A program made the translations under genes and the position numbers. Shown here in pieces: positions 24,311-26,723 of a stretch of DNA of 64,000 nt. Under the pieces are notes generated by a model that was not told the origin of the DNA, did no database searches, and worked only from the letters and a program-made list of their open reading frames with translations. Position 1 is the stretch's first letter. The number at the start of each line of letters is the position of its first letter. The DNA comes from Oceanispirochaeta crateris (GTDB lineage: Bacteria > Spirochaetota > Spirochaetia > DSM-2461). The stretch covers positions 3,080,439-3,144,438 of the forward strand of contig NZ_CP036150.1 of assembly GCF_008329965.1 (NCBI RefSeq), read 5' to 3'.

Positions 24311-24631
24311 TCAGATCCCTGGAAAACCCGGAGGCAGGGGCATACCGGAAAGTTCAGAGACTTCTTCTCTAATTTTTTCTTTGATTTTGATCGTGGCTGC
24401 AGAACATGAGGAAACAATCAACTCTTCCAACATCTTCACATCCCGGGGATCAACAGCAATAGGATCTATGGTAAGCCCCGTAATTTCCATCTGTCCATTG
24501 ATCCTGACTTTTACAAGTCCACCGCCGGAACTGCCTTCTGCTTCAATGGTTTTCAGCTTCTCCTGAACTTCTCCCATTTTGCCTTGCATCTCCTGCAAAT
24601 TTTTCATCATATCCATTGGATTAAAACTCAT
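24311..24631 (-). CDS. ybaB: YbaB/EbfC nucleoid-associated protein
   Basis: 106 residues, standard for this small dimeric DNA-binding family. The N-terminus is MDMMKNLQEMQGKMGEVQEKL, followed by GGGLVKVRINGQMEITGLTIDP. The Borrelia homologue EbfC binds DNA broadly. Its ATG overlaps the stop of the dnaX tau frame as ATGA, so ybaB is translationally coupled to the frameshifted product, which supports expression of that frame. Confidence 0.93.
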   Translation of the reverse strand: MSFNPMDMMKNLQEMQGKMGEVQEKLKTIEAEGSSGGGLVKVRINGQMEITGLTIDPIAVDPRDVKMLEELIVSSCSAATIKIKEKIREEVSELSGMPLPPGFPGI

Positions 24632-26335
24632 ACCGAACTCCTGTTAATAATCGTTCCACGGAATATATTCCGAACAAGTTCAACCTGCTCTTCTATCTCT
24701 TCATCTACTGACAAATCTTCAGATTGATTGATAACCGTTTTTAAACTCACTTCCCAACCAAGCTGTTCTTTTATAATATTTTCTATTTCCCTGCTTTCCT
24801 TCTCAATGAATGTGCTTTCAAAGGGGCTATCAAAACTGAGAGACAGGTTTGGATTCTCAAAATTCCAATGCCTGGATTTTTCCATTGCCGCAGCGAGAGA
24901 GTGACGGTCTTGTCTGAGAGCCTTGAGAATCTCTTTTTTCATTTCCTCAAGAGAAGGAATCGATTTCGTTGATGTTTCCAAAGTTGTGGTAGGTTCTGCC
25001 TTAGGAGGAACAGAAATAGGCTCTGTTTCTACGGGTATTGAATCAGCTGAGGGACCGGAGCTGAGAACAGAATGAGAAGACTCTTTACGGCTCTGCAACT
25101 TCTTGTTGAACGCATCTGTGAGACCCGCCTCAGGCTGTTTTAATTTTTTTTTTAGCCTCATCCTGTGGAGGATGAATATGAACGGAAGATGAATTTTCAA
25201 GTTGATCCTTCATGCGTCCCAGTTCTTCAAGGAGGGCCTTAGGATCAATATGGTACCGGATTGAAGACAAACGGCTCACCAACAACTCAAGTTCAAATCG
25301 TGGATTCAGAGAATATCGAATATCCCTGAAAAGCTTGATCACTTCTTCCAGAGCCCATTCAATCTGTCGTGAATTCAAAAGTTCAAATACAATGCTGGAA
25401 AAGCGATCTGCCGTATAACCCAGTAGAGATTCTTTTTTAACACCATGAAATATGAACAGAACATTTCTCAAATACTCTGCCAGGTCTATGATGAATTGCT
25501 CAACAGAAACTCCACCGGAAAGGATCGTATCTAAAAGATCCATAGATTCCTCAGTCTTTTCCTCCACTAACAGAGTGATAAGATTGTTCAATTGGTCCAT
25601 TCCAATAAGACCAAGTTTTTCTCTGATTTTATCTAAGGTAATGTGACCATCTGAAAAAGAGACTATCTGATCAAAGAGAGTATAGGCGTCGCGAACGGAA
25701 CCGGTTGCTTCCCGGGCAATCCAAAAGAGGGCATCCTCATCAAATTTGACCGCAATTTCATCACAGACCGCTGCCAGGAGTCTTTTAATCTCACTCACCT
25801 CTACCAGCCTGAAATTAAACTGCTGACACCGTGAGCGGATTGTGGCCGGCACTTTATGAATTTCAGTCGTCGCAAATATGAAGATGATATATGGAGGTGG
25901 TTCCTCTATTGTCTTTAACAGTGCATTAAAAGCACTGTTGGAAAGCATATGCACCTCATCAATGATATAAATCTTATATCGTGAGCTCCCTGGACCAAAG
26001 AGAACTTCATCCTTGATTTCACGGATGTCATTTACACCTGTGTTGGAGGCCCCATCAATTTCGATGACATCCATGGAATTTCCACGGGCTATTTCTTTGC
26101 AATTGGAACAGACACCACAAGGAGTGATAGAAGCTCCCCTTTCACAATTGAGAGAACGGGCTAAGATTCGGGCCGAAGAAGTTTTTCCTACCCCTCTAGG
26201 TCCTGAAAACAGATACGCATGAGCTATCCTATTATTTTCAATTGAGTTTTTAAGAGTCGCTACAACAAAATCCTGGCCGGAGAGTTCCACCAGAGACTGA
26301 GGTCGTTTCCGTGAGGCAGTTACTTCAAATTCCAT
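24628..26335 (-). CDS. dnaX: DNA polymerase III gamma/tau subunit with an internal frameshift site
   Basis: The zero frame (26335 to 25130) encodes a 401-residue gamma-like product with the full AAA+ clamp loader: Walker A GPRGVGKTSSARIL, zinc site CGVCSNCKEIA, IDEVHMLSNSAFNALLKTIEEPP and sensor SRCQQF. It ends 4 codons after a run of ten A (25144-25153 as T on the plus strand). A second frame continues to 24628 for 171 residues. Joining KKK to LKQPEAGLTDAF through a net loss of one A gives a 568-residue tau. That reading frame has its own conserved-looking domain and is coupled to ybaB by ATGA. The A-run resembles the transcriptional-slippage site of Thermus dnaX. A homopolymer sequencing error is the alternative. 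Confidence 0.9.
25144..25153 (-). promoter_or_regulatory. A10 slippage site in dnaX
   Basis: Ten consecutive A on the coding strand sit at the exact point where the two dnaX frames can be joined. Standard decoding reaches a stop four codons later. Loss of one A in the mRNA, or a +1 ribosomal shift, opens the tau frame. The -1 shift used by Escherichia coli dnaX would not. Confidence 0.7.
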
Positions 26336-26394: not shown

Positions 26395-26500
26395 TCCCCT
26401 CAGCTCCTCTCAAGCGAGCCATGGCACATCAAACAACCGCTTACGGCTGCTACCTTCCGATCCTGACCGGGTTGGGCGGTGTTCAATTGCATGGAGCCTG
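26395..26500 (-). ncRNA. ffs: Signal recognition particle RNA (small bacterial type)
   Basis: The minus strand carries the universally conserved SRP domain IV core, GGTCAGGATCGGAAGGTAGC and following bases (26469-26445), with the GGAAG-type tetraloop between the symmetric and asymmetric loops that bind Ffh and FtsY. The ends pair (CAG-G-CTCC with GGAGCTG, one bulge), and GGGGATTTTTTT follows as a likely terminator. The boundaries are estimated from this helix. It lies between tRNA-Ser(GGA) and dnaX on the same strand. Confidence 0.92.
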
Positions 26501-26523
26501 AAAATCAACACTGAAGGGAAATA

Positions 26524-26608
26524 CGGAGAAGGGGGGATTCGAACCCCCGGTACCTTGCGGTACATACGCTTTCCAAGCGCACACCTTCGGCCTCTCGGTC
26601 ACCTCTCC
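26524..26608 (-). tRNA. tRNA-Ser(GGA)
   Basis: An 85-nt class II tRNA. Acceptor stem GGAGAGG/CTTCTCC, anticodon loop TTGGAAA (anticodon GGA, reading UCC/UCU), long variable arm and TTCGAAT T-loop. Discriminator G; CCA is not encoded. Confidence 0.95.
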
Positions 26609-26649: not shown

Positions 26650-26723
26650 TATGCCCAAGAGGGTTCGAACCTCTGACCTTCAATTCCGCAAACTGACGCT
26701 CTATCCAGCTGAGCTATGGGCAC
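26650..26723 (-). tRNA. tRNA-Arg(GCG)
   Basis: A 74-nt class I tRNA. Acceptor GTGCCCA/TGGGCAT, D-arm with GGA (including A20, an arginine identity base), anticodon stem TCAGT/ATTGA with loop TTGCGGA, so anticodon GCG (reads CGC/CGU). Discriminator A; no encoded CCA. Most bacteria use ACG, edited to inosine, for this box. Confidence 0.9.

Follow-up and report, generated by a model that had tools for sequence, protein, structure and literature searches.

The dnaX gene of Oceanispirochaeta crateris is, as sequenced, split at a run of ten A into two overlapping reading frames, of which one encodes gamma and the other the part that is specific to tau. Sequence patterns in this gene and in its relatives suggest that the run is probably a programmed RNA-polymerase slippage site, at which mRNAs with 10 or 11 A would give gamma and mRNAs with 9 or 12 A would give tau. 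The gene lies on the minus strand of the window, by which we mean the whole 64-kb stretch of DNA that was analyzed. The gamma reading frame (25130..26335) has 401 amino acids, contains the clamp-loader ATPase domains I-III (ATPase, lid and domain III; Pfam PF13177, PF22608 and PF12169) and matches the DnaX model NF005173 with an E value of 6.4e-193. The A10 run occupies 25144..25153 (read from 25153 to 25144; T10 on the plus strand), and the coding strand around it is GAT GAG GCT AAA AAA AAA ATT AAA ACA GCC TGA, which gives the gamma tail DEAKKKIKTA*. The TGA stop that is used by the A10 mRNA lies at 25130..25132, four codons past the run, as the first-pass annotation had stated with correct coordinates while leaving the minus strand unmentioned.

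The tau-specific frame (24628..25143, minus strand) is the +1 frame with respect to gamma. Loss of one A or gain of two leads into KKKLKQPEAGLTDAF (KKKLKQPEAGL...), which stays open for 171 codons after KKK, and this part is a C-terminal match to NF005173 (positions 448-563 of 568, E 4.7e-7). Its TGA stop at 24630-24628 overlaps the ATG of ybaB (24631) as ATGA. The frame, the length of 171 residues and this overlap had all been described before from the sequence and all hold. The ybaB/ebfC gene (24311..24631, minus strand) and recR follow dnaX downstream, and a tRNA and a small SRP RNA are found upstream. The small SRP RNA and the tRNA gene adjoin dnaX on the minus strand (26405-26503 and 26524-26608), and another partial tRNA match lies beyond this pair, at 26650-26700. 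The third frame is closed almost at once: one extra A (A11) leads to KKKN*, with a TAA stop at 25140..25142 on the minus strand. The stops in the two non-tau frames end 4 and 14 nt past the codon boundary at the run end. A -1 ribosomal shift of the E. coli type gives the same KKKN* and is unable to join the two frames, as was argued earlier; since it cannot give tau, the E. coli mechanism is excluded in O. crateris.

The first-pass annotation had proposed a comparison of the A run and its frame in related genomes, and this comparison shows that relatives share both the run and the split. Within the genus, each of the six genomes has A10-A12 here, and the phase takes three forms. O. crateris has A10 and reaches tau by -1 or +2 A, three congeners (G002, G003 and G005) have A11 and one (G001) has A12, all four with tau reached by one added A, and G004 has A10 with tau in frame. 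In a wider sample of 119 Spirochaetia dnaX genes from 77 genera, which is non-random and includes a second set chosen partly for short open frames, at least nine A are found in the linker after domain III in 32 of the 119 genomes, from 16 genera and 11 families; the 31 genomes other than O. crateris have A9-A12 in this same linker. By phase, and with the caution that a metagenome assembly may give the run length wrong by one, 19 of these 32 have tau in frame, 12 need one extra A and only O. crateris needs -1 or +2. On a tree of the gamma domain the phase changes at least seven times among the run-bearing genomes.

Several local patterns were seen in this sample. In family f13 all five sampled genomes (L033 and L177-L180) show a gamma-first split at A9 or A10, with a short tau tail of ~58-125 codons. 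In genus g11 (L009, L011 and L169) the A10 lies ~20-25 codons further downstream, within RKKKLTLSAALEKA, where the C-terminal domain of tau begins, and this different position indicates that the site moved or arose separately. An A10 is also present in the dnaX linker of two GC-rich genomes, L060 (MAG GL140, GC 0.67) and L228 (GC 0.71), where it would be least expected.

Are such runs more frequent than the encoded amino acids alone would produce? In our analysis the amino acids were kept fixed and synonymous codons were redrawn from each gene's own usage. Over the 119 genomes, at least nine A occur in the linker in 32 cases against 8.7 expected, while in the gamma domain there are 0 against 0.2 expected. 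The longest linker run is exactly A10 in 20 genomes against 1.9 expected, whereas A7 (7 against 8.8) and A8 (8 against 7.8) show no excess in the linkers of the same 119 genomes. Relatedness is handled in this test by genus sampling only; with one genome per genus, A10 is observed 9.5 times against 1.2 expected, a value reached in 0 of 4000 simulations. In addition, when the two non-tau frames are tested jointly, early stops past the run are more frequent than in the synonymous shuffles (16 genera, p 6e-4 to 8e-4), a signal that is not significant when each of the two frames is tested alone.

The length of the favored run bears on the mechanism. For a ribosome, which can slip on A_AAA_AAA or A_AAA_AAG, seven bases are enough. 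Slippage by RNA polymerase has been documented for runs of at least nine (PMC1088944, PMC5009743), and an excess at A10 that is missing at A7 and A8 therefore speaks for the polymerase. One could still suppose that the frames are joined by a ribosome that shifts on the A run, by +1 in O. crateris and by -1 in its relatives; A_AAA_AAA can indeed shift by -1, and such a shift would lead to tau in the 12 other gamma-default genomes and to gamma in the 19 tau-default genomes. We regard this as quite unlikely, given that -1 in O. crateris meets an immediate stop and that runs of A7-A8, which are ample for a ribosome, are not in excess. The E. coli heptamer A_AAA_AAG is also not enriched in the linkers (7 against 8.6 expected), no conserved hairpin is seen, and an Rfam search gave no match at the dnaX run site. 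In O. crateris a weak AGGA lies at -11, and downstream of the run a fold of -12.5 kcal/mol is predicted; across the genomes, Shine-Dalgarno-like motifs are patchy. For the run-bearers other than O. crateris a ribosomal -1 shift is formally possible, and polymerase slippage is there favored by the length of A10 and by the stops in the joint test.

The earlier proposal that RNA-polymerase slippage yields both products from one gene thus stands as the best-supported mechanism, on the basis of the A10 excess without an A7-A8 excess, the variable phase among congeners, the early stops in both other frames and the inability of a -1 shift of the E. coli type to join these frames. The direction that it gave, A10 to A9, is not established: an A12 mRNA also yields tau, and in the 12 other gamma-default relatives tau is reached by adding one A. 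Insertions are reported to be the commoner outcome of slippage on A runs (PMC5574713), which makes A10 to A9 the less favored step; a gain of two A, or of one should the genomic run be A11, is no less likely. We suggest that the RNA-DNA hybrid on the A10 would realign while it is transcribed, which would give mRNAs with 9, 10, 11, 12 and further numbers of A. The A10 and A11 mRNAs would end by ordinary translation within a few codons, as gamma, while the A9 and A12 mRNAs would be in the tau frame and would give full-length tau, whose C-terminal domain presumably binds the polymerase. The predicted products have 401 and 568 amino acids (~45 and 63 kDa). What the sequences show is the two frames, the run and its conservation, the excess that is specific to A10 and purifying selection on the tau frame. 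We infer from this that slippage takes place and in which direction (-1 or +2, or +1 with a run of A11), what ratio of gamma to tau results and that both products are needed.

Two other features were considered in connection with slippage. O. crateris has a tRNA-Lys with anticodon CTT besides TTT, i.e. for AAG and AAA (an anticodon pattern matched mostly by chance, and the tRNAs counted are those confirmed with ARAGORN). It resembles Thermus in this and differs from E. coli, and the presence of two tRNA-Lys species was suggested to favor slippage over ribosomal shifting in Thermus (PMC5009743). A possible nascent-RNA hairpin, TTCATCCT-CCAC-AGGATGAG (25157..25176, minus strand; 8 bp, -8.6 kcal/mol), ends 3 nt before the run. 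As a slippage enhancer it was set aside, since its p value of 0.04 in O. crateris becomes 0.40 over the genera; it is not conserved and its function is doubtful.

The tau frame itself appears to be maintained. Among the six congeners the dN/dS of the tau domain is ~0.07-0.29 where measurable (last 125 columns, with synonymous sites near saturation), and the tau ending is nearly common to all six. Nonsynonymous change far below synonymous change indicates that the frame is kept as protein also in the split genomes and, judged by sequence, that it is under purifying selection there. It could be argued, seeing that the zero-frame ORF closes before the tau part, that O. crateris makes gamma only and that the tau part is either degenerating or translated by itself from a start inside the gene. 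This is very improbable: the tau frame runs for 171 codons without a stop, purifying selection acts on it across the split genomes, no conserved internal restart site for a separate tau domain was found, and tau is the essential dnaX product in E. coli.

Another question concerns the reliability of the run length. Homopolymer length, with its indels, is a typical residual error of PacBio-only assemblies. The O. crateris assembly was made from PacBio RS II reads only, with HGAP3 and Quiver polishing at 125x (PMC7380536), and for this reason the exact A count is uncertain by one or more; the true genomic run could be A11 instead of A10. O. crateris alone needs -1 or +2, against +1 in 12 others, and an error of one base, or a recent shortening of the run from A11, therefore deserves attention; neither of these would restore a single frame. 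A more radical version is that the real run is A9 or A12 and that dnaX is one continuous tau frame. The type of assembly, which is prone to homopolymer indels, and the congener with A10 and tau in frame (G004) would fit with this, yet we consider it unlikely. The same run splits dnaX in five of the six congeneric genomes, which were assembled separately, the coverage of O. crateris is 125x, and dnaX is the only gene that is interrupted by one of the ~70 homopolymers in the 64-kb window, while two other O. crateris genes carry A10 in frame. Even with A9 or A12 the run would be slippery and the other two frames would be closed by stops, which is the layout of Thermus. A or T runs of at least ten number only 13 in the 4.01-Mb genome, and most are outside genes. 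An IS256-like transposase with an A10 at 2038584-2038593 of the genome contig was looked at as a second slippage gene and rejected, as the other copies have CAACAAAAAAAA at this place and an unbroken frame; it is one of five near-identical copies, has lost one base, is frameshifted and is probably dead.

The differences among the congeners, from A10 to A12, could also be taken as replicational phase variation, in which the run length varies between cells and toggles tau. Phase-variable genes, however, mostly have surface functions (PMC3711429), the loss of tau would be expected to halt replication, and the A10 excess across genera suggests a length that is held and does not drift freely, so this explanation has little probability. 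On another view, dnaX in many spirochaetes may be indifferent to frame, with selection holding the run near ten so that RNA polymerase always yields both products, and the genomic frame (tau first, or gamma first with +1 or -1/+2 needed) drifting freely even within a genus. We put this forward as a plausible but tentative generalization.

Split dnaX genes have been described before. The 2013 GeneTack study reported 17 two-ORF dnaX genes from 12 genera, nine with exactly 10 A, and proposed slippage (PMC3711429). The O. crateris gene resembles those described there in having a zero-frame gamma stop just past the poly-A, so that tau needs recoding, and in having tau as a second, overlapping and conserved frame with a match to the DnaX C-terminal. 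It differs in direction: the published genes need a -1 shift at the DNA level (one extra A), whereas O. crateris needs one A less or two more; the published direction is found in 12 of its spirochaete relatives. In Thermus thermophilus the zero frame encodes tau, and slipped mRNA supplies gamma (PMC1088944, PMC5009743). O. crateris shares with this system a run of at least nine A at the gamma/tau boundary, nearby stops in both other frames and two tRNA-Lys species, but the roles are reversed, with gamma as the zero frame; the Thermus layout is that of the 19 tau-default relatives. A 2016 review notes that, at an efficiency near 50%, the change of one base can make the two products exchange their roles (PMC5009743). 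With Escherichia coli the gene has in common two products from one gene and a junction after domain III, but it lacks an A_AAA_AAG with a hairpin, and in O. crateris the -1 shift ends at a stop. In Blochmannia a homopolymer-tract frameshift in dnaX was likewise proposed to be rescued by slippage, but that tract lies inside the tau-only part, in an eroding endosymbiont genome, without a dual-product layout (PMC3017870).

In the literature that was searched, which included the GeneTack study without the names of its 12 genera, no spirochaete case is described. O. crateris dnaX joins the known two-ORF dnaX genes, and what we did not find reported is the spread through the clade and the change of default product between members of one genus. 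For Borrelia, a study suggested that only tau is made, since it saw no ribosomal signal (PMC9879097). Our observations bear on whether the clamp loader of spirochaetes has a gamma form, and this is directly testable in a cultured spirochaete that has a closed genome and a dnaX gene split at A10. A clade that keeps the length of the run while its default product changes would be a natural experiment on what selection sees, the run and not the frame.
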